Below, piece by piece: positions 20,704 through 32,870 of a stretch of DNA of 64,000 bases (position 1 is its first letter; every line of letters begins with the position of its first letter). A program made the translations under genes and the position numbers. The stretch spans positions 1 to 64,000 of the forward strand of contig NZ_CP111080.1 of NCBI RefSeq assembly GCF_026278245.1, read 5' to 3'. The notes under the pieces were generated by a model, which saw only the letters and a list, made by a program, of their open reading frames with translations, was not told where the DNA came from and did no database searches. The DNA comes from Pontibacter kalidii (lineage in GTDB: Bacteria > Bacteroidota > Bacteroidia > Cytophagales > Hymenobacteraceae).

Positions 20704-21050
20704 GCGTGAGCATACAGGAGTTAGGCCAAAGGCTAAAGCTGCTGCGAAAGCGGCTTGATTTATCGCAGGAGAGCCTGGCAGAGTCCATGGGGGTGAACCA
20801 GAACCAGATATCCCGGCTGGAGAACGGGGTGGGAGGGACGATCGAACTGCTTTTACTTCTGTTCAGCTTCTACAGCAAGCACTTTCACGTGGACCTTCTT
20901 TTTTCCGACAACTTTGACATCCTGGAAAAGCACGAGAAGCTATCCAACAGCCACAGCATCAACAGCATTGCTGTTGAAAAGCTGAAGCTGGCTCAAAGTG
21001 AGTTTTCCACGCAGATTGAGGAGGTGATACGTTTGCTTGATACCCCTTAA
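20700..21050 (+). CDS. Xre-family HTH regulator
   Basis: The 116-aa product has an N-terminal Cro/C1 HTH (residues about 5-62; LGQRLKLLRKRLDLSQESLAE ... NQISRLENG). The C-terminal half is helical. It is translationally coupled to the coupling protein gene (ATGA overlap), so it may regulate transfer. Unusual: its last codon and TAA stop lie inside the terminal 7-bp core of the last attC-like site of the cassette array (21045-21051). Confidence 0.88.
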   Translation: MSVSIQELGQRLKLLRKRLDLSQESLAESMGVNQNQISRLENGVGGTIELLLLLFSFYSKHFHVDLLFSDNFDILEKHEKLSNSHSINSIAVEKLKLAQSEFSTQIEEVIRLLDTP

Positions 21051-21110
21051 CGTGTTAGTACAGGCTGCGAGCGAGGCGCAGCCGAGTATAGAGCCTGTGC
21101 AGTGTTAGCA
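21045..21110 (-). repeat. attC-like site 6 (distal end of array)
   Basis: On the minus strand the site runs from TGCTAAC (21110-21104) to GTTAAGG (21051-21045). Inner arms ACAGGCT (21060-21066) and AGCCTGT (21092-21098) pair perfectly. TGCTAAC complements GTTAGCA, the 5' core of the same cassette in site 5. Confidence 0.85.
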
Positions 21111-21129
21111 AGAGATATTCTTTGGTATT

Positions 21130-21666
21130 CTACAGTTTCCCATCAAACCTGCCTTCGGTAACTTTAATAACTTCACATCCAGTCTTGGACAGTGTAAATG
21201 AGAACTTCCCTGCGATGATACCATTTTCTAAATCAAGTTTAGTAACTTCAAGTGTGCCGCTGCGGGATACTTCAGGACTCTTGTCGTAATCGCAGTATTC
21301 GTTATAGAAGCTTACTCCGCTTATCTCAGCATTATCAAATGTATAAACTCCTGCTTTATCAACTTGAGCCATAGCTATAACAAGATAATCGTACTCTGCA
21401 GGACTTTCTTTGGTTTCCCTGTAGGCTGCTATATTTAAAGTGCCACCTTTATAAGCAGGGTCGTAAATAACATTAAAATTTGACTGGAACGTACTGGGTC
21501 TGCCCTTTGGCAACCACACCTTTCCGTTCACCATAGCACCGAAAGTGTTCTTGCCTTCCATAGTATCTGCTGGAAGTTCTTCTCTGGGATTAGCGTCTTT
21601 CTTTTTACAGGATGAAAAGGAGATAAGGACTATTAGGATAAAGAGGGATAGAGTTAGTGTTTTCAT
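21130..21666 (-). CDS. Cassette 6: secreted lipoprotein, DUF6252-like
   Basis: The 178-aa product starts with a lipoprotein signal (ILIVLISFSSC, lipobox Cys at about 20) followed by KKK. The mature part is beta-rich, opening NTFGAMVNGKVWLPKG, a pattern common to Bacteroidota DUF6252-type lipoproteins of unknown function. It is flanked by attC-like sites 6 and 5. Its codon use is more AT-rich than the tra genes. It has no visible promoter of its own in the 30-bp leader. Confidence 0.85.
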   Translation of the reverse strand: MKTLTLSLFILIVLISFSSCKKKDANPREELPADTMEGKNTFGAMVNGKVWLPKGRPSTFQSNFNVIYDPAYKGGTLNIAAYRETKESPAEYDYLVIAMAQVDKAGVYTFDNAEISGVSFYNEYCDYDKSPEVSRSGTLEVTKLDLENGIIAGKFSFTLSKTGCEVIKVTEGRFDGKL

Positions 21667-21696
21667 ATTTTAGGGTTTTCTGATGATTTTATTCTT

Positions 21697-21750
21697 TGCT
21701 AACGTACTGGCCTATAATGTGGCGAAGCTAAATTATAGGCGTGGTTAGCC
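21697..21750 (-). repeat. attC-like site 5
   Basis: Minus strand: GGCTAAC (21750-21744) to GTTAGCA (21703-21697). Inner arms GCCTATAAT (21710-21718) and ATTATAGGC (21732-21740) form a perfect 9-bp inverted repeat. Length 54 bp. Confidence 0.9.
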
Positions 21751-21759
21751 AAATGTGTT

Positions 21760-22449
21760 TTATCTTGAACCGTAGTTCCTCATTTCAAGAGAGTCCAGAC
21801 AATCAAAGTCAGGCCACGCAATATGAGATTCGGCTTTTACTAAGAAGAATTGCCTGCCTTCTTTAAAAAGAAGAGATTCTATTCTAAGACCGTCCTCGAG
21901 TATCACATTCTCATATACAATACTTTCTTCAAACTTGCTCTCCGCTTTGTTGAATACGCTTGCCTTACCCAACAGCAGTAGATCGCTGACGATCCACCTG
22001 TAACTTTCATTTGCTTTTACATTTGGCTCTGAAATTTTAGAAACTGGCGCATAGCCATAAGGCTCTATAAACTGCCTTTTGTATTCTTTATAGTATCTCC
22101 GCCCCATATCCTTGTGATAGTCTGGAGCAGGAAGATGTTCTATATTAAATAGATCGGCATTTCCTTCTATTGTTCGTATTTGCTTGTTCAGTTTACTGAG
22201 GTCATTCTTTTTCTCTTGGCATAAGTCCTTGTCGGAAAGGTTCTCGACAATATAAGATTGTAAAACTGAAAGAGGAATAAAGATCAACGCCTTGCTGTTT
22301 TCATAGATAAACTGGTTGGCAGTGGTATCAATCTGCAACAGACGAATCGGCTTCTTGTCTGCGAGCTGAGAATAGTCGCCTTGACTACTGTCTGTTGCTT
22401 TACAGGACACCAGTATAAAAACTACCAGAATGAAAACAGTTCTTATCAT
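21760..22449 (-). CDS. Cassette 5: hypothetical lipoprotein
   Basis: The 229-aa product has a lipoprotein signal (TVFILVVFILVSCKA, lipobox Cys about 16). The mature protein is charged, mixed alpha/beta, with two Tyr-rich stretches (RRYYKEYKRQFIEPYGYAP). No family recognised. It lies between attC-like sites 5 and 4, with only about 20 bp between the upstream core and its start codon, as expected of a cassette gene. Confidence 0.8.
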   Translation of the reverse strand: MIRTVFILVVFILVSCKATDSSQGDYSQLADKKPIRLLQIDTTANQFIYENSKALIFIPLSVLQSYIVENLSDKDLCQEKKNDLSKLNKQIRTIEGNADLFNIEHLPAPDYHKDMGRRYYKEYKRQFIEPYGYAPVSKISEPNVKANESYRWIVSDLLLLGKASVFNKAESKFEESIVYENVILEDGLRIESLLFKEGRQFFLVKAESHIAWPDFDCLDSLEMRNYGSR

Positions 22450-22468
22450 TTTCTATGGTTTCACTTTT

Positions 22469-22534
22469 GGCTAACGTGCTGGTATAGCAGATTGCAAGGC
22501 GTAGCCGCAGCAGTACTGCTATACTTTGTTGTAT
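22469..22534 (-). repeat. attC-like site 4
   Basis: Minus strand: ATACAAC (22534-22528) to GTTAGCC (22475-22469). Inner arms GTATAGCAG (22482-22490) and CTGCTATAC (22516-22524) are a perfect 9-bp inverted repeat. Length 66 bp. Confidence 0.9.
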
Positions 22535-22539
22535 GGTTG

Positions 22540-22977
22540 TTATTCTTCAGTTTCTGCCGAATCGTATCTATAAATATCTACATCAGTAGCAGTCTGCGTC
22601 TGATAAAGAAATTCTATAGTTTTTAAGTCATGTCCTAAAGCAGGCGTTGACTCTTCTGGATTGACATCAATGTACATCACAATTTCAAGTACAGAAGTCA
22701 GCTGGTATTTTTCTTTTAGCTTATTGATGAGTCCAACTTTGTCTTTCAGTTTCTCTACCAATTCATCTACAAGGTTGTCTATGAATATGGCTTCTTTTCC
22801 TTTTCCAGTTGACCACTTCCAACAGGCATATTTCTGATTAGCAATGTACTGCCCTTTGTCTCCCTTTTTCCAAGAGTCTGTTGGTTCTATTCCAAGTGCT
22901 CTGGTGACTTCATTTGGTTCAAAGTCATCACCATGAAGAGCAAAATAGACGTAGGATTTTGAGAGAGTGTTATTCAT
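22540..22977 (-). CDS. Cassette 4: DUF4279 domain protein
   Basis: The 145-aa product matches the DUF4279 pattern: an opening strand YVYFALHGDDFEPNEVTRALGIEPT followed by WKWSTGKG and a C-terminal acidic part. Function unknown; such genes are frequent in polymorphic-toxin immunity loci and in cassette arrays. Its cassette is unusually long only because an IS110 element has inserted upstream of the gene, separating it from its own 5' core at 24619-24625. Confidence 0.85.
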   Translation of the reverse strand: MNNTLSKSYVYFALHGDDFEPNEVTRALGIEPTDSWKKGDKGQYIANQKYACWKWSTGKGKEAIFIDNLVDELVEKLKDKVGLINKLKEKYQLTSVLEIVMYIDVNPEESTPALGHDLKTIEFLYQTQTATDVDIYRYDSAETEE

Positions 22978-23005
22978 GCTTTTAATCCTGACTAACGTTT
23001 ATTTC

Positions 23006-24361
23006 TCAGGCCGTTGCAAAGCCCAGTTCTTCAGGCTTGAGGTCTAATTTAGCGATGTTTTTCTTTATCCGCTGCACCAGCTTGAGCTTTCTCTTCTCGT
23101 CGAGGAACAGGTATTGCGTGGGCGGGTTGTAGGGCACGCGGTAAGTGAGCATGTGCCAGATGATCACCGCCAGCTTGCGGGCCGTGGCGCTCACGGCCGC
23201 CTGCCTGCCCTTGCGGAAGGCCACTCTTTTAAAGAAGTCCGACAGGTGCGTCTCACGCAGGTTGCCGATGACATTGGCCGCGTTCCGCAGGGCGATTTTC
23301 AACCGGTTGCTGCCCTTGGGAATGTGGGAGCTGAGCACCCTGCCCCCGCTCACCTTCGTGTTGGGGCAGAGCTTGAGCCAGTTGGTGAACTGCTTGGCCG
23401 TGGGAAACTTGCGGATGCCTTCGGCACCCACCTCGCTCATCAGCGCCATCACCGTCGCATGGCTCACCCCCTCGATTCGGAGCAGGTCCACCCCACCGTA
23501 GTACTGGTAGGCCAACTGGTTGAGATCCATCTGCTGCGGGGCATTCTTGTTGACCCGCTTGTAGGGTTTAGGGTCTGTTCTCAGCTCCCGCCTCTCTTTA
23601 TCTGCTCCAATCTGCTCTCTAAGCAGCTGCTCGATGGCCGCGTCACAAGCCGCAATCTTATCCTGCAGCATCTTGTACATATCCAGCTCCTGGGCAAGGG
23701 TAAAGAGCAGCTCACGGCGGCCGTTGCCGCGCAGGGCCAGGGCGATTTCTTCTTTCGATTTTCGGCAGTTGCCATGCCGGAAGCAGGCCAGCTTTTCGGG
23801 ATTGGTTTCCCCCTGGCAAACGGCCTCGATGATGGCCATGCCCGTCTGGCCGGTGATGTCGCGCACGACCACGTCGAGCCGCAGGTTCAGCAGGCGCAGG
23901 TACTTCTGCATCTTCTGGGTAGTGACGGCGGCCGTCTCCAGCAGCGAGGCGCGGTGGCGGCAGTAGGTCCTGAGCTCCTCGGTGGCCTGGTCAGGCAAAA
24001 AGCTGCCCGAGAGCAGCCCCAGCGCGTGCAGGCGCTGAATCCACTGGCAGTCCTGCACGTCGGTTTTGCGCCCCTTGATGTTCTTGGTGAACTTGCCGTT
24101 GCAGAGCAATACCTCCAGGCCTGCCTGCTGCAGGGCCGTGAACAGGCTCTGCCAGTAAGTACCCGTGCTCTCCATGGCCACGGTGGAGATGTGGCAGGAA
24201 AGGAGCCACTGGGTAAGTTCCCGCACCTCGTCCTCATAAACGCCGAACTCCCGCACCTGATCCGCTCCCTGGCCCACAGCCACAAAGTGCGAGCGGCTGC
24301 CCACGTCGATGCCGGCAGCATGTTGGTTGACAATCTCCATAGGCGTGTTTCTCTTTTTCAT
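23006..24361 (-). CDS. IS110-family transposase (DEDD plus Tnp domain)
   Basis: The 451-aa product has the RuvC-like DEDD domain at the N-terminus: AGIDVGSRSH (Asp about 20), VAMESTGTYW (Glu about 60) and GRKTDVQDCQ (two Asp about 96 and 99). The C-terminal transposase_20 domain holds IEGVSHATVMALMSEVG and the NWLKLCPNTKVSGG segment with the conserved serine region. Length is normal to slightly long for the family. It is intact, so the element may be active. A long antisense frame on the plus strand is an artefact of its GC-rich codon use. Confidence 0.95.
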   Translation of the reverse strand: MKKRNTPMEIVNQHAAGIDVGSRSHFVAVGQGADQVREFGVYEDEVRELTQWLLSCHISTVAMESTGTYWQSLFTALQQAGLEVLLCNGKFTKNIKGRKTDVQDCQWIQRLHALGLLSGSFLPDQATEELRTYCRHRASLLETAAVTTQKMQKYLRLLNLRLDVVVRDITGQTGMAIIEAVCQGETNPEKLACFRHGNCRKSKEEIALALRGNGRRELLFTLAQELDMYKMLQDKIAACDAAIEQLLREQIGADKERRELRTDPKPYKRVNKNAPQQMDLNQLAYQYYGGVDLLRIEGVSHATVMALMSEVGAEGIRKFPTAKQFTNWLKLCPNTKVSGGRVLSSHIPKGSNRLKIALRNAANVIGNLRETHLSDFFKRVAFRKGRQAAVSATARKLAVIIWHMLTYRVPYNPPTQYLFLDEKRKLKLVQRIKKNIAKLDLKPEELGFATA

Positions 24362-24575
24362 AGTGGTAAAGAATAAAGTGAAAAACGATCCCAGGGGAAT
24401 GTACGCTAGGTCTTGAAAGTATCCTGATCGGGGTCTCCCGAGGGAGCCGCCACTGAAATCACCTCAAAGCCCTCCTCAGTAGAAGGGCTCTCTACATTCC
24501 AACCAGAATGCCACCCGAGCTTTAAAGCGTCAATTAGAAACCGGTCTTGCAAGGGATACAAAATAGATACGCAGC
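24362..24575 (-). ncRNA. Candidate IS110 bridge RNA (5' non-coding region)
   Basis: The region upstream of the transposase is non-coding and strongly structured. GGAATGTA (24396-24403) and TACATTCC (24493-24500) form a perfect 8-bp closing stem. Inside are AGCCCT/AGGGCT (24468-24473 and 24484-24489) and CTCC/GGAG (24435-24438 and 24443-24446) hairpins. IS110-group elements encode a bridge RNA, guiding target and donor choice, in this position. The call rests on position and visible stems; loop-to-target matches were not established. Confidence 0.55.
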
Positions 24576-24618
24576 AACGTTAGCGGGAGAAATCAATAGT
24601 TAATATGGGGGGAATACC

Positions 24619-24683
24619 ATACAACGGACGGGTGCATGCGGAGCCTGAAGCGTAGCGAAGGTTGAGCATGCATTGTGTTGGCA
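24619..24683 (-). repeat. attC-like site 3
   Basis: Minus strand: TGCCAAC (24683-24677) to GTTGTAT (24625-24619). Inner arms TGCATGC (24633-24639) and GCATGCA (24666-24672). GTTGTAT complements ATACAAC of site 4, showing that everything between sites 3 and 4, including the IS110, belongs to one cassette. Confidence 0.88.
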
Positions 24684-24695
24684 CATGTTTTTCTT

Positions 24696-24983
24696 TTATT
24701 TCTCCACCCAAGCTCCAGCCAAATCTTCATACTCCCATTCTGCCTGGTCTATTGCGTCATCTATAGTTTCATGCCATGTATCGGTTACAGATTCCCAACT
24801 TGAATCACAACCGAACAGGTAAAATCCTTCTTCATTATCATATTTACAGATAGCAAGTCCAACAGTGGGGTTTACTGTTTTTCCGATATGGATGTGTACA
24901 GTTTTTCCCGTAGCCCTTCTTCCTTCTACAGAAGCATAAAGTATAACCTTTGCTCCACCAACTATGTCTGGTGCTTCTTTCAT
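24696..24983 (-). CDS. Cassette 3: hypothetical protein
   Basis: A 95-aa soluble product with two beta-rich blocks (VGGAKVILYASVEGRRATGK and VHIHIGKTVNPTVGLAICKY) and an acidic Trp-rich helix at the C-terminus (ESVTDTWHETIDDAIDQAEW). No family recognised. It fills the cassette between attC-like sites 3 and 2, with a 54-bp leader after the upstream core. Confidence 0.75.
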   Translation of the reverse strand: MKEAPDIVGGAKVILYASVEGRRATGKTVHIHIGKTVNPTVGLAICKYDNEEGFYLFGCDSSWESVTDTWHETIDDAIDQAEWEYEDLAGAWVEK

Positions 24984-25036
24984 CGCTTTAGTTATTCGTA
25001 TTGGTTACTTGGATAGCATTCATAACTTGAAATATG

Positions 25037-25103
25037 TGCCAACGGTCTCGTACAGGCAATGGGTGCGGCATCAGCCGAACATGGTGCCTGTGCTTTGTTA
25101 CCT
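25037..25103 (-). repeat. attC-like site 2
   Basis: Minus strand: AGGTAAC (25103-25097) to GTTGGCA (25043-25037). Inner arms ACAGGCA (25052-25058) and TGCCTGT (25085-25091). Length 67 bp. Confidence 0.88.
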
Positions 25104-25149
25104 GATTGAGTTTTTCTTTTTCTTGTTGTTCAAGATGAAACGAAGAATT

Positions 25150-25425
25150 TTAAGAGAAGAAATATTCAGTCATTTCGTCTATAAATTCCTTATCCGTAAG
25201 AGGCAAGCCAGATTTAGAACCCAAAACGGAATCTATGTTGCACTTTGGGCAAACAGCTGTCACTCTACCATCACTTTCTTCAAACCATTCCTTTATTTCA
25301 TTAGGACTAAAAGTATTTTGACAGTAGAAGCATACACACATTTCACTGGCAAGTACTTCTACTTTATGAGAATGACAATGATTATGTGCCTTTAATAAGA
25401 AGTCTATACTATACTTCATCGTCAT
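25150..25425 (-). CDS. Cassette 2: small zinc-ribbon-like protein
   Basis: The 91-aa product has two Cys pairs, CFYC (about 32-35) and CPKC (about 59-62), enclosing NTFSPNEIKEWFEESDGRVTA, followed by the GLPLTDKEFIDEM helix. This layout is shared by short conserved proteins annotated only as cytoplasmic proteins in many phyla. Function unknown. It is the whole cargo of the second cassette; its stop lies about 47 bp from the attC-like site. Confidence 0.82.
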   Translation of the reverse strand: MTMKYSIDFLLKAHNHCHSHKVEVLASEMCVCFYCQNTFSPNEIKEWFEESDGRVTAVCPKCNIDSVLGSKSGLPLTDKEFIDEMTEYFFS

Positions 25426-25442
25426 TCATACTTTTCTCTTAC

Positions 25443-25496
25443 AGGTAACGTACTTGGCTTTGCGGTGGCACAGCTACCGTAAAGGTGTGGTTATGT
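25443..25496 (-). repeat. attC-like site 1
   Basis: Minus strand: ACATAAC (25496-25490) to GTTACCT (25449-25443). Inner arms CTTTGCGGT (25458-25466) and ACCGTAAAG (25476-25484), one mismatch in nine. The stop codon of the cassette 1 gene lies inside the ACATAAC core. Length 54 bp. Confidence 0.88.
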
Positions 25497-25946
25497 ACCG
25501 TTATATTTTGAGATAAAATCATTGATAACTTTATCAAACTCATCTTTTCTTTCTTTGGGTATATTTTGGTAACCTATCCAATACAGGCCTTTTACTTCTT
25601 CTTTTCTCCAATATTTATTTCCTTCACTACCAGTGATAGAATTTATTTCATTTCTATTGGGTCCACCAATTATGAATTTTCCAGCCTTTGCAACTTCTTC
25701 ATAGTTCCATCCAAAGTCTTCAGTAGAAAAATAAAATAAACCGTCGTTCTCGTATTTGAACTCATAAGACGTACCATGAGCCTGCGACTCAATTTTGTCT
25801 ATGTATCCATCTGGTGGATTTAACTTATAAGTGATTCTCTTATTTTCCTGTGTCAAATAACCCTTTTTCTTAATTACATATGATTGGCAGGATGTAACAG
25901 ATATGAGAGCGATAAAACTTAAAAAAGCTATTAAAACCTTTTTCAT
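25491..25946 (-). CDS. Cassette 1: hypothetical lipoprotein
   Basis: The 151-aa product begins with a lipoprotein signal (KKVLIAFLSFIALISVTSC, Cys about 20). The mature part is Lys/Tyr-rich with several strands and no recognised domain. It is the cassette nearest the recombinase, the position normally best expressed in integrons. Its stop codon TAA overlaps the attC-like core at 25490-25496. Confidence 0.8.
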   Translation of the reverse strand: MKKVLIAFLSFIALISVTSCQSYVIKKKGYLTQENKRITYKLNPPDGYIDKIESQAHGTSYEFKYENDGLFYFSTEDFGWNYEEVAKAGKFIIGGPNRNEINSITGSEGNKYWRKEEVKGLYWIGYQNIPKERKDEFDKVINDFISKYNGT

Positions 25947-25958
25947 TATTACTTATGA

Positions 25959-26109
25959 TACATAACTATAGTATATACGACAACATACGCTTATCTGCAC
26001 TATGTACGTAGTAGCTAAACACTGCTTGAGTCCACTTTTGCTTACTGGATCTGATACTTGTGGCTGTAGTGCGCATGCGTTTATATAGTTAAGCTAATAT
26101 AGGTGATTG
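25959..26109 (-). other. attI-like region between recombinase gene and first cassette
   Basis: The recombinase stop (26110) and cassette 1 are separated by about 150 bp with no gene. The junction core is GTTATGT on the minus strand (25965-25959), the exact complement of ACATAAC at the end of cassette 1, so this is where cassette 1 joined. The spacer also holds a weaker inverted repeat GCACTA (25997-26002)/TAGTGC (26067-26072) and GTTAAGC at 26088-26094. Which bases the recombinase binds cannot be read. Confidence 0.65.
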
Positions 26110-27591
26110 CTAGAGATTATCCAACGGGCTGACAATTTTATCCAGCGCATGGGTGGTGATGTGGGTGTAGATCTCGGTGGTCTTGCTGCTCCGATGTCCC
26201 AGCAGCACCTGGATATACCTTAAATCCGTTCCTTGCTCTAGCAGGTGAGTGGCAAAAGAATGGCGCAGGGTATGTGGCGTGGCGGGTGCTTTCACGCCTG
26301 CCTTCTCCTTGCTGGCCCGGAACACGCTGCGGATGCTCTCCACCGTATATTGCCCGCCCGTCTGCCCCTCAAAGAGCCACACCCTGGGCCTGTACTGCTT
26401 GTAATAAGCACGCAGGCTTTCCAGCAGCTTTTGGGAGAGCAGCGTGGTGCGGTCCTTCTTGCCTTTGCCGCCACGGATCAGCAGCAGGTTGCGCTCCGAC
26501 TGCACGTCCGTAAGTTTCAGGTTGATCACTTCGCCAATACGCAGGCCACCCGCATACAAAAGCTGCAGCATGCAGCGGTGCTTGAGGTTCTCGGTCACAG
26601 AGAGGATTTTCAGCACGTCCTGCTTGCTGAGCACCTGCGGCAGCCGCTCGGGCTTCTCGGGCCGCTCCACCTGGCCCAGCTGCACCTCGTGCCGCAGCAG
26701 CACGCGCTGGTAGTAGAACTTCACGGCATTGATGGACTGGTTCACAAACGATACGGAATAGGTGCCGGCCTGCACCATCTGGCGGTGGTAGTGGTTGATG
26801 GCCTCTTCCGAGAAAGCATGTATGCCCTCCAGCCCGCTATCCCTGTGCGCATTCAGAAAGCGCAGTAGCAGGCTGTGGTAGGTGCGGATGGTACTGAGGC
26901 TGTAATTGAGCAGGAACAGCTTCTCCACGTAGTGAAGCGGGCAGGCAATATAGCCGTCGCCCTTCCGGTAACATTGTTCCCAGAGCCGGGCCTGCAGGGC
27001 CATGTCCTTCACCTGCATGGTCTGCGCCAGCCACACCTGGGCTACTCGCTCTACCTCGGTTAGCAGCGTGTGCAGACTGCTGCTTTCGGTGCGGATGACA
27101 AAGCACTGCATGTCGTGCAGCCACCTGGCCACTTTGCTTTGCTTCAGGCAGGTATGGATTTCCTTGTTGTAAAGATAACTGAGCTGTACATACGGTCTGC
27201 CCTGGTGTTCCAGGGGCTGCAGGCGCACGACGGGGCGTGCGGGCACCTTTCCCAATGGCTCTGCCACATGCTTATCTTGTTGCAGGATAACGGTTCCTTC
27301 CGCCGGGCGCAGGCGCTTGGGCCGGAACAGGTACCTTGTGTCCACCTTGGCCAGCCCCTGGAAGTGCTGGTGCGTCATCTCGATGGCCTGGCTGCTGCGG
27401 TGCATCACAAAGCACTTGTAGGTCCTGCTGTACTTGATCCAGCCAGCCTCCTTCAGTCGTTTGGAGAGGAAGGGGTTGGGCTTGTGCCAGATGCGGATAA
27501 TAGCTTTGCCCGCGTGCTCCAGCGGGTTAAGGTACAAAATAGGTTTTTGATCGGGATAAGCCATGGCAAATGAGACAGTTACTGAAGGCAA
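26110..27591 (-). CDS. Tyrosine recombinase with duplicated N-terminal module (putative cassette integrase)
   Basis: The 493-aa product is a tyrosine recombinase with a complete active site: R351 (GGLRIGEV), K376 (GGKGKKDR), H440 and R443 (HTLRHSFATH), H466 (LLGHRS) and Y475 (TEIYTHI). A SAM-like core-binding domain lies at about 220-305. It lacks the roughly 20-residue insertion that defines IntI between the Lys and HxxR motifs, so it is XerC/D-like. Residues about 17-85 and 120-187 are two copies of one module (PILYLNPLEHAGK versus PVVRLQPLEHQGR; KCFVMHRSS versus QCFVIRTES), about 190 extra residues ahead of the recombinase. MAYPDQK at codon 10 is an alternative start. It is GC-rich, unlike the cassettes, and faces the same way as them. 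Confidence 0.9.
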   Translation of the reverse strand: MPSVTVSFAMAYPDQKPILYLNPLEHAGKAIIRIWHKPNPFLSKRLKEAGWIKYSRTYKCFVMHRSSQAIEMTHQHFQGLAKVDTRYLFRPKRLRPAEGTVILQQDKHVAEPLGKVPARPVVRLQPLEHQGRPYVQLSYLYNKEIHTCLKQSKVARWLHDMQCFVIRTESSSLHTLLTEVERVAQVWLAQTMQVKDMALQARLWEQCYRKGDGYIACPLHYVEKLFLLNYSLSTIRTYHSLLLRFLNAHRDSGLEGIHAFSEEAINHYHRQMVQAGTYSVSFVNQSINAVKFYYQRVLLRHEVQLGQVERPEKPERLPQVLSKQDVLKILSVTENLKHRCMLQLLYAGGLRIGEVINLKLTDVQSERNLLLIRGGKGKKDRTTLLSQKLLESLRAYYKQYRPRVWLFEGQTGGQYTVESIRSVFRASKEKAGVKAPATPHTLRHSFATHLLEQGTDLRYIQVLLGHRSSKTTEIYTHITTHALDKIVSPLDNL

Positions 27592-31569: not shown

Positions 31570-32870
31570 AAACTGTGTCATCATTTCCCTTTTGTCAAGG
31601 TTCACTTCAAGTCCAGTTGCATCCTGTCGCCGAACCAGATGGCCAGTTGCTGGGCTGTCTGGCTCCAGTTGCTTAGCGGCATGACCCATTTCCGGCTGAT
31701 GTTCTGGTGCGAGAGGTAAATGAGCTTCAGCAGGGCCATGTCAGAGGGGAAAGCCCCCTTGGTCTTGGTCACCTTCCGCACCTGGCGGTGAAAGCCTTCT
31801 ATCGTGTTGGTGGTGTAGACCAGGCGGCGAATCGGCTCGGTGTACTTAAAGTACGTAGTGAGCCTCTCCCAGTTCCGCTGCCAGCTCTCGAGCACCTTGG
31901 GGTACTTTTTGCCCCACTTCTCTTCCAACTCCAATAGCCGCAGTTCAGCCAGTTCCTTTGTCTCAGCCCGGTACACCGGCTTTAAGTCCCGCAGGAACTC
32001 CTTCTGGTCCTTGGAGCCGACGTACTTGATGCTGTTTCGTATCTGATGCACGATGCAACTCTGCACTTCAGTTTGTGGAAAGACACTGCTGATGGCTTCC
32101 GCAAAGCCTTTTAGGTTGTCGATGCAGGCAATGAGCATGTCGGCAACGCCCCGCTGCTGCAGGTCGGTGAGCACTGAGAGCCATAAGGTAGCTCCTTCAC
32201 TTTCTGATACATACACGCCCAGCAGCTCTTTGTGGCCATGGCGGTCTATGCCCAGGATGTTGTAGACGGCTTTGCTGACAATACGCCCCTCCTGCCGCAC
32301 CTTGTAGTGCATGGCGTCCAGCCAGACGATGCAGTAGAGCCTGTCCAGCGGCCTTGCCTGCCACTCCTTGACCTGGGGCACGATCTTCTCGGTGAGGGCG
32401 GCTAAGGTATCATGGGAAATGTCCATGCCGTACATTTCCTTGAGATGAGCCGAAATGTCCCGCAAACTCATCCCCAAACCGTACATGCTCAGGATACGGG
32501 GCTCCAGGTTCTCGGCCAGCACCGTCTCCCGCTTTCGAATGATCTGCGGCTCAAAGCTTGCCGAGCGGTCGCGGGATGATTCCACATCAATCACCCCGTC
32601 CGAGGTGCGCACCTGTTTGGATACTTTGCCATTGCGCCTATTGCCCTTTTGGCGTTGCTCATCCGATAGGTGTAGGTCCATCTCCGCGTCCAGGGCGGCC
32701 TCCAGAAAGTGCTTTAACAGGGGGCCTAAGGCGCCATCTTTGCCAAAGGTGGGTTTGCCGCTCCGGAACTCATCCAGGAACTGGCGCTTGATCTTCTCCA
32801 GATTCAGCTCGTTTTTGTCTTCCATGTTGACTGTGTTAAAGGTAATACTGCTAATCCTTTGACACAGTTT
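31570..32870 (-). mobile_element. IS256-family insertion sequence
   Basis: Terminal inverted repeats AAACTGTGTCA (31570-31580) and TGACACAGTTT (32860-32870) bracket one transposase gene, giving about 1.3 kb, normal for IS256. The bases directly outside (TGTAATTC left, ATTTTACA right) do not match, so no target duplication is visible; either the true ends differ or one side was rearranged after insertion. Confidence 0.85.
31602..32825 (-). CDS. IS256-family transposase (mutator type)
   Basis: The 407-aa product is full length for the family. DDE residues lie in VWLDAMHYKVR (Asp about 170), MLIACIDNLKGF (Asp about 235) and TNTIEGFHRQVRK (Glu about 343), with the CIVHQIRNS motif between the second and third. 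The N-terminus carries the HFLEAALDAEMDLHL and RRNGKVSKQVRT segments. It appears intact. Confidence 0.95.
   Translation of the reverse strand: MEDKNELNLEKIKRQFLDEFRSGKPTFGKDGALGPLLKHFLEAALDAEMDLHLSDEQRQKGNRRNGKVSKQVRTSDGVIDVESSRDRSASFEPQIIRKRETVLAENLEPRILSMYGLGMSLRDISAHLKEMYGMDISHDTLAALTEKIVPQVKEWQARPLDRLYCIVWLDAMHYKVRQEGRIVSKAVYNILGIDRHGHKELLGVYVSESEGATLWLSVLTDLQQRGVADMLIACIDNLKGFAEAISSVFPQTEVQSCIVHQIRNSIKYVGSKDQKEFLRDLKPVYRAETKELAELRLLELEEKWGKKYPKVLESWQRNWERLTTYFKYTEPIRRLVYTTNTIEGFHRQVRKVTKTKGAFPSDMALLKLIYLSHQNISRKWVMPLSNWSQTAQQLAIWFGDRMQLDLK

Follow-up and report, generated by a model that had tools for sequence, protein, structure and literature searches.

In Pontibacter kalidii, the genome of which measures 5.05 Mb in two contigs, contig C2 (73,841 bp) carries an array of small genes next to a gene for a tyrosine recombinase within its first 64 kb, hereafter the window. 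This array very probably represents a working or recently working integron-type platform, the integrase of which is a relative of IntI without the IntI-specific insertion. Six small minus-strand genes separated by palindromes had been reported here by an initial annotation; the six genes and six palindromic sites were recovered within 21042-25966, and the adjoining recombinase gene is intact (26110-27591, minus strand). The proposal of that annotation, an integron-type array with a non-IntI recombinase, survived structure-based detection of the sites, the analysis of homologues beside different cassettes and the comparison of related contigs. Structured sites are present and homologous recombinases do lie near cassettes, the two points on which the proposal had been staked.

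A covariance model (R1) built from 40 aligned sites of nine arrays in other Hymenobacteraceae, none of them from the window, was run over the 64 kb with filters off. Six matches were obtained, all on the minus strand and with E-values from 8.5e-13 to 1.8e-8; the seventh-best reached only E 0.94. These attC-like sites are situated at 25440-25500 (cassette 1, E 1.5e-10), 25034-25107 (cassette 2, E 6.2e-11), 24616-24687 (cassette 3, E 1.8e-8), 22466-22538 (cassette 4, E 3.9e-12), 21694-21754 (cassette 5, E 2e-10) and 21042-21114 (cassette 6, at the array end, E 8.5e-13). The attC covariance search suggested by the initial annotation was thus successful with a model made from sites of other genomes, and found none in the window with a locally built model of canonical attC sites (R3, described below). 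The proposed AAC...GTT core was borne out and could be refined, as the unpaired spacers, read by eye from the sequences, are unequal, with 3-5 nt on the shorter and 6-8 nt on the longer side.

The sites detected by R1 mostly follow the orientation of the recombinase gene. In the first 29 stretches, training sites included, 172 of 179 matches at E <= 0.01 are on the recombinase strand of their own locus; six of the other seven form one array in L119 and one lies in L128. The six-site array of L119 (L119:10778-15361) runs opposite to the recombinase about 7 kb away and could be linked to a different attI. For 20 stretches that contributed no training sites the count was 133 of 135 at E <= 0.1, with no R1 match in L188, L191, L192 and L194-L196. 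A wider test covered 53 of the 70 loci L048-L117, 52 of them not labelled Pontibacter; the 17 loci left out were two from Pontibacter and 15 with less than 600 nt downstream. All 44 matches of this test at E <= 1 (34 at E <= 0.01), none of them training sites and distributed over 16 of the 53 loci, are located downstream of the recombinase and on its strand. Loci L083, L096 and L061 contain relatives of the recombinase labelled as Rhodobacteraceae, Sabulitectum and Armatimonadetes metagenome-assembled genomes, with array sites in L083 and L096; the labels point to either mis-binning or transfer.

In an integron cassette, the first bases and the last bases before AAC stem from one unit, so that a match is expected between the two ends of one cassette and not with the adjacent cassette. 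With at least 5 of 6 matches at positions 4-9 required, own-end inverted repeats were found for all six window cassettes, while the end matched the start of the neighbour in one of six. The 32 loci scanned provided 208 segments (200-1600 bp, each from one site to the next), of which 147 passed the own-end test (permuted mean 7.3, maximum 17 in 1000 permutations) and only nine matched between the end and the next start. For the 16 wider-test loci with sites, 17 of 26 passed (permuted mean 1.45, maximum 5). In the 147 segments the match extends over GTT and the next five bases, with weaker agreement at positions 9-10 (0.56 and 0.63); it drops at position 11 to 0.05, where 144 starts have A and 122 ends have C, and returns for three further bases at 0.80-0.85. 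This fixed A/C mismatch, which is present in the rows from Flavobacteriia too, makes the two strands of a site unequal. The R1 matches and the own-end repeats together give these sites the characteristics of attC, namely a variable sequence, a conserved hairpin and an AAC/GTT core. A slightly larger set of 230 segments, in which two genomes are represented twice, gave 161 passes (median 548 bp); in 154 of these 161 cassettes the longer open reading frame (ORF) lies on the array strand.

The six cassettes of the window are all encoded on the minus strand. Cassette 1 (25449-25965, own ends 5/6) contains an ORF at 25491-25946 for a protein of 151 residues, which is lipoprotein-like by eye and matches no family over its cut-off. 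Cassettes 2 (25043-25448, own ends 5/6), 3 (24625-25042, 6/6) and 5 (21703-22474, 6/6) hold ORFs for 91, 95 and 229 residues at 25150-25425, 24696-24983 and 21760-22449, respectively. In cassette 4 (22475-24624, 6/6) the small ORF (22540-22977, 145 residues) encodes a DUF4279 protein (PF14106), and upstream of it lies an IS110-family transposase gene (23006-24361, NF033542). Interruption of a site by this insertion sequence could be ruled out, since the gene lies inside the cassette and the sites are complete. Cassette 6 (21051-21702, 5/6) carries an ORF at 21130-21666 for 178 residues belonging to the Riean_0653 family (NF052634, 162.6 bits, cut-off 57). No orphan immunity gene of type VI secretion systems was recognised in the six window cassettes with Pfam and NCBIfam. 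For 130 cassette ORFs of other arrays, 35 Pfam families were found, and the 25 shown have one to three members each; the domains include SUKH, Imm33 and WapI immunity, PemK toxin, acetyltransferases and DUFs, the immunity domains occurring in a few of the ORFs. Nine PADLOC families were also present in this set, with one member each.

The putative insertion point, attI, is located at 25964-26010 (minus strand), 144 nt after the recombinase gene. It consists of a conserved box and an inverted repeat ending in TATACTATA/GTT, with GTT at 25966-25964, and matches R2, a profile made from recombinase-linked attI only, at E 1.0e-11, the same attI being one of the 29 training rows. The stretch between recombinase stop and first cassette ends in ATAGTGCAGATAA, the inverted repeat and TATACNRTA/GTT, and is kept in 39 distinct loci; GTT follows the junction in 38 of them, and the sequence past it differs between loci. 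The window and two plasmid-type contigs of other genomes (G075:C2 and G129:C46) are 99% identical across recombinase and attI. The match to G075:C2 ends at window position 25963 and restarts at 21703, the GTT opening cassette 6; cassettes 1-5 and the IS110 gene are therefore absent there, and a relative of cassette 6 follows directly after attI. On G129:C46, a draft-genome contig that the shared backbone suggests to be a plasmid, the match ends at 25964 and restarts at 21090, with other cassettes between. Elsewhere, a 712-bp cassette occurs twice in the L124 array with 100% identity, and three cassette pairs common to different species are 80, 89 and 91% identical. These alignments indicate that cassettes are probably exchanged between relatives and that the attI beside the recombinase would be the point of their insertion.

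A candidate cassette promoter (Pc) could be placed directly behind the recombinase gene. Its putative -7 element TATATTAG (26094-26101, minus strand) starts 11 nt after the first base of the stop codon and reads into the array. The motif TAnnTTNG is found 11-12 nt from the first stop base in 31 of 41 loci, which include two pairs from the same genomes, compared to 7.9% of shuffled 40-mers. We take this motif to resemble the -7 consensus of Bacteroidetes.

The recombinase has 493 residues (PF00589, E 1.7e-40; PF13495). Two similar alpha/beta units, modelled within the N-terminal part of about 190 residues, are followed by a SAM-like core-binding domain and a catalytic domain. In 45 sequences the columns of R351, K376, R443, H466 and Y475 are invariant and that of H440 nearly so; the catalytic roles of these six residues are presumed from the RKHRH-Y pattern. 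The AlphaFold model reached a predicted local distance difference test (pLDDT) of 85.0 and a predicted template modelling score of 0.64, and its best Foldseek matches were archaeal XerA (4a8e, 5hxy), followed by IntI4 (2a3v). The N-terminal part noted as new by the initial annotation is indeed present; as a mark of the system it does not hold, since it is variable among relatives, and the alignments of many of them start at about residue 122 (Flavobacteriaceae) or about residue 213 (others). Fold searches with this part gave weak matches to the SMARCAL1 HARP domain 4o66 (probability 0.82, E 0.083) and YciH 1d1r (0.89, E 0.051). Five recombinase matches at E <= 1e-60 are present in G075, some of them partial and one identical to the window protein.

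The assignment to a lineage other than IntI was supported by family searches. The best NCBIfam scores were obtained with NF040815 (200.6 bits, cut-off 220) and the IntI family TIGR02249 (193.4 bits, cut-off 265), and the scores for XerC (178.6) and XerD (181.2) did not reach the cut-offs of 335 and 330. Separate XerC/D-type genes are found on the chromosome at C1:163716, over the XerD cut-off, and C1:4645368. The span between the GKG and HxxRH motifs is 65-66 residues in all 68 family sequences (of 118) and 107 in all 25 IntI sequences (of 30) with both motifs found; it measures 71-73 in 14 XerC/D and 30-75 in 23 of 30 other NF040815 proteins. The recombinase is about 42 residues shorter than IntI where the latter has its insertion, and the IntI4 structure 2a3v aligns in two stretches flanking this gap. 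The I2 domain is described with about 20 residues (PMC4792948), and the gap measured here is wider.

Two phylogenetic trees were constructed, both without archaeal XerA: one of 147 rows by a quick method, and one of 85 rows after removal of eight long-branch and three fast XerC/D rows and with 40 family rows sampled. In both, IntI is monophyletic, and a fully supported branch separates it together with the recombinase family from XerC/D and most other Bacteroidota Xer proteins. The designation XerC/D-like given by the initial annotation was therefore abandoned, as the gene product falls on the side of IntI. In the second tree, IntI is monophyletic with support of 100/100, excluding the window recombinase, and is joined by two NF040815 proteins (98/98). 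The group of the window recombinase, with 37 family rows, is weakly supported (87/46), and four family rows cluster elsewhere with NF040815 proteins (98/90). On these trees the family would be either the sister of IntI or the group within which IntI is nested. Another recombinase, TnpF (L284:7052-9073), is about 49% identical over 237 residues, and its gene immediately precedes tet(X3) on plasmid pHH1107; R1 found no site at this locus. A recombinase match was obtained in 66 plasmid records, 50 of them from Acinetobacter.

The occurrence of the platform was surveyed in 200 genomes of the family, with limits of E <= 1e-60 for the recombinase (which admits some fragments) and E <= 1e-4 for R1 sites, at most 24 site candidates being scored per genome. 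The recombinase was found in 75 genomes, sites in 78, both in 66 and neither in 113. Recombinase and sites occur together in all 65 sampled homologue-bearing genomes outside genus g5, plus G108 of g5. Twelve genomes have sites without a recombinase within the limit, G092 with a single site. By our own count the contig continues for less than 1500 nt downstream of the recombinase in 37 of 80 loci and upstream in one, as expected if repeats break the assemblies there. From these counts the array platform appears to be widespread and not an oddity of one plasmid.

Sites are also dispersed over the chromosome of the strain itself. R1 detects 37 sites at E <= 0.01, six of them in the plasmid array and 31 on the chromosome, single or in small groups; for 23 of the 31 an upstream cassette start with at least 5 of 6 matches could be found, some perhaps by chance because the search spanned about 2 kb. 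For counting attI, the pattern ATAGTGCAGATAARC with two mismatches proved too loose, as it matched genomes without the system, and profile R2 was used instead. With R2, 17 sites were found in the genome at E <= 0.001 (16 chromosomal, one on the plasmid), 5-12 in six other recombinase-bearing genomes, training rows counted, while the five genomes searched from genera g4 and g5 had none. Fourteen of the 16 chromosomal attI-like sites were inspected (e.g. in L264-L283), and each lies just ahead of a first cassette; the small cassette groups behind them are without a full recombinase gene. In 17 of 20 chromosomal stretches an R2 match at E <= 0.1 is present, each on the cassette strand, and a recombinase remnant adjoins only L282. 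The plasmid enzyme may serve these sites in trans; alternatively, they may descend from loci that lost their own recombinase. Distributed attI sites would be an organisation that to our knowledge has not been described for integrons.

The platform very likely works like an integron. The recombinase would join a circular cassette, by its hairpin site, to the double-stranded attI between G and TT, and cassettes would leave by attC x attC or attI x attC recombination. As in integrons, recombination would take place on one folded strand. The promoter just behind the recombinase gene would read the first cassettes, and the same enzyme would act on the dispersed chromosomal attI-like sites.

Several other explanations were weighed against this integron-like reading. 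It is rather unlikely that the same platform recombines conventionally, by exchange of both strands of double-stranded sites, with the palindromes just placing two monomers. In its favour, the enzyme is without the IntI insertion that has been tied to the use of single-stranded attC (PMC4792948), and an inverted repeat is found within attI itself. The sites, however, conserve structure and not sequence, and their unequal spacers and the A/C mismatch at position 11 are as expected for strand choice. Still less probable is an inactive relic, once functional, of which the recombinase or attI is now dead in this strain. The transposase gene in cassette 4 and the recombinase remnant on the chromosome would fit such a decay, but the plasmid gene encodes a full-length recombinase, and an identical protein is present in two other genomes, the contigs of which differ in their cassettes.

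It is very improbable that the arrays are debris of canonical IntI integrons with the recombinase as a bystander. IntI is common in other classes of the phylum (over the cut-off in 84 of 296 genomes), and genomes with sites only do exist. However, an IntI match at E <= 1e-60 is present in 85 genomes, of which G236 alone is labelled as of the same class or nearer, the number of such genomes sampled being given in part, and the Pontibacter genome itself has no IntI match at this limit. The two site models barely cross-detect. R1 gave nothing below E = 1 in 11 IntI loci. R3, the locally built canonical-attC model made from 13 sites of L172-L174, was run on the eight other IntI loci; five of them gave matches at E < 0.001 (the best at 4.8e-11), and L171, L176 and L178 gave none. 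L171 has canonical-looking palindromes by folding, and therefore the reach of R3 is limited. Run on 380 kb of the present arrays plus the window, R3 gave two matches (E 0.004 and 0.87, both in L130) and none in the window. A search for canonical attC with gapless arms found none in the 11 IntI loci, supposedly because canonical arms carry bulges, and folding was used instead. Since, in addition, attI is fixed right behind the present recombinase, this explanation was rejected. Most improbable of all, homologous recombination or non-autonomous spread of intergenic palindromes, without cassettes, would account for short palindromes between genes and scattered on the chromosome, and was rejected because the two ends of a unit match each other far more often than their neighbours and the breakpoints fall on the GTT of attI and of cassette 6, with dispersed groups also beginning after same-strand attI-like sites.

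A number of observations weigh against the integron-like reading. Excision, integration and single-strand folding are all inferred from sequence. Arm pairing in the sites of the R1 alignment (89.1% of cells, compared to a shuffled mean of 67.8%) is a biased figure, the sites having been selected for paired arms. R1 had no match in 37 of the 53 wider-test loci, some of which lack downstream sequence, and own ends did not match in 61 of the 208 segments, in at least some cases because a site within the segment had been missed. The attI of L119 has GTG instead of GTT, and the right boundary on G129:C46 is not sharp, the homology restarting inside the last site (21090). Nine g5 genomes with a homologue of 45-48% identity have no R1 site, in accordance with the g5 stretches L188, L191 and L194-L196, and 11 sampled genomes carry 12 or more sites with no recombinase at E <= 1e-60. 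In the structural model, residues 467-479, including the tail with Y475, have a pLDDT below 50.

Contig C2 is likely a conjugative plasmid, since its TraK, TraM and TraN proteins exceed the NCBI cut-offs, with TraJ- and MobC-like proteins below theirs. An IS256-family transposase gene lies elsewhere on it (31602-32825).

Among known systems, XerC, XerD and archaeal XerA share the fold of the recombinase, as shown by the Foldseek matches; XerC/D are separated from it by the fully supported branch. Modules of the dif type were rejected; the recombinase scores under the XerC and XerD cut-offs. An integron-like subgroup of simple tyrosine recombinases has been described, to which the text consulted ascribes neither arrays nor an attI or a role with cassettes (PMC8138268). 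No account of these arrays as integrons was recognised among the papers listed from the literature covered, which excludes subscription journals and most preprints.

The recombinase-associated acquired interbacterial defence (rAID) arrays of gut Bacteroidales are described as short genes in one orientation, with conserved motifs between them and a tyrosine recombinase, all of which are present in the window; their cargo is given as orphan immunity genes, and the word 'integron' is absent from the main text (PMC12247911). Two arrays, found via plasmid searches and assigned to this type by fit to the published description, were examined. In Parabacteroides distasonis (L286:6725-14819) own ends match in seven of eight cassettes and the next start in none (permuted mean 1.0, best permutation 6), and in Bacteroides ovatus (L288:8728-18807) in five of seven and none (permuted mean 1.0, best permutation 5). 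These arrays differ in their sites, TAACRA...CCATTA with the core CCA/TTA instead of GTT, on which R1 was silent in L286, and their recombinase is about 44% identical to that of the window over the C-terminal 275 or so residues. A possible mechanism for the collection of immunity genes by gut rAID arrays is thereby offered. In a broader reading, the case for which seems to us evenly balanced, Bacteroidia would have a second, IntI-less class of integrons with gut rAID as one branch; cassette recombinases without I2 would be the grade that gave rise to IntI, hairpin-cassette recombination would be older than the I2 helix, and one recombinase would serve a dozen or more attI sites genome-wide.

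With canonical integrons the arrays share one-gene cassettes, the hairpin site with its AAC...GTT core, the attI beside the recombinase and the own-end repeats, which in 11 IntI loci, both strands, were found in 16 of 40 segments (permuted mean 2.3, maximum 7). Their cargo of immunity, toxin, acetyltransferase and unknown domains is also of the kind that integrons carry. The position of the array 3' of the recombinase has no diagnostic value, as IntI loci L169, L170 and L177 have it too. The differences lie in position 11, which matches in 0.05 of ends here and in 0.81 of canonical ends, in the invisibility of the window sites to R3 and in several attI-like sites per genome, where one attI per integrase is known from integrons. 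As the recombinase stays under the IntI cut-off, has no insertion and falls outside the IntI clade, the array does not belong to the IntI integrons by any of these three defining features of the integrase.

A survey has reported very few integrons in Bacteroidetes, with one complete, in Salinibacter (PMC9024848), and a review counts Bacteroidota among the integron-bearing phyla (PMC8618304). Tools tuned to IntI and canonical attC may thus have overlooked a gene-exchange system that is common in Bacteroidia. The I2 domain has been proposed to let a tyrosine recombinase use folded single-stranded attC (PMC4792948, PMC7790495), a proposal that becomes directly testable with a related lineage of integron anatomy and no I2 domain. 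On this Pontibacter plasmid, and in many of its relatives within the Bacteroidota, a platform for collecting genes is present that resembles an integron and seems to function as one, with a sister enzyme of IntI that lacks the part regarded as essential for integrons.

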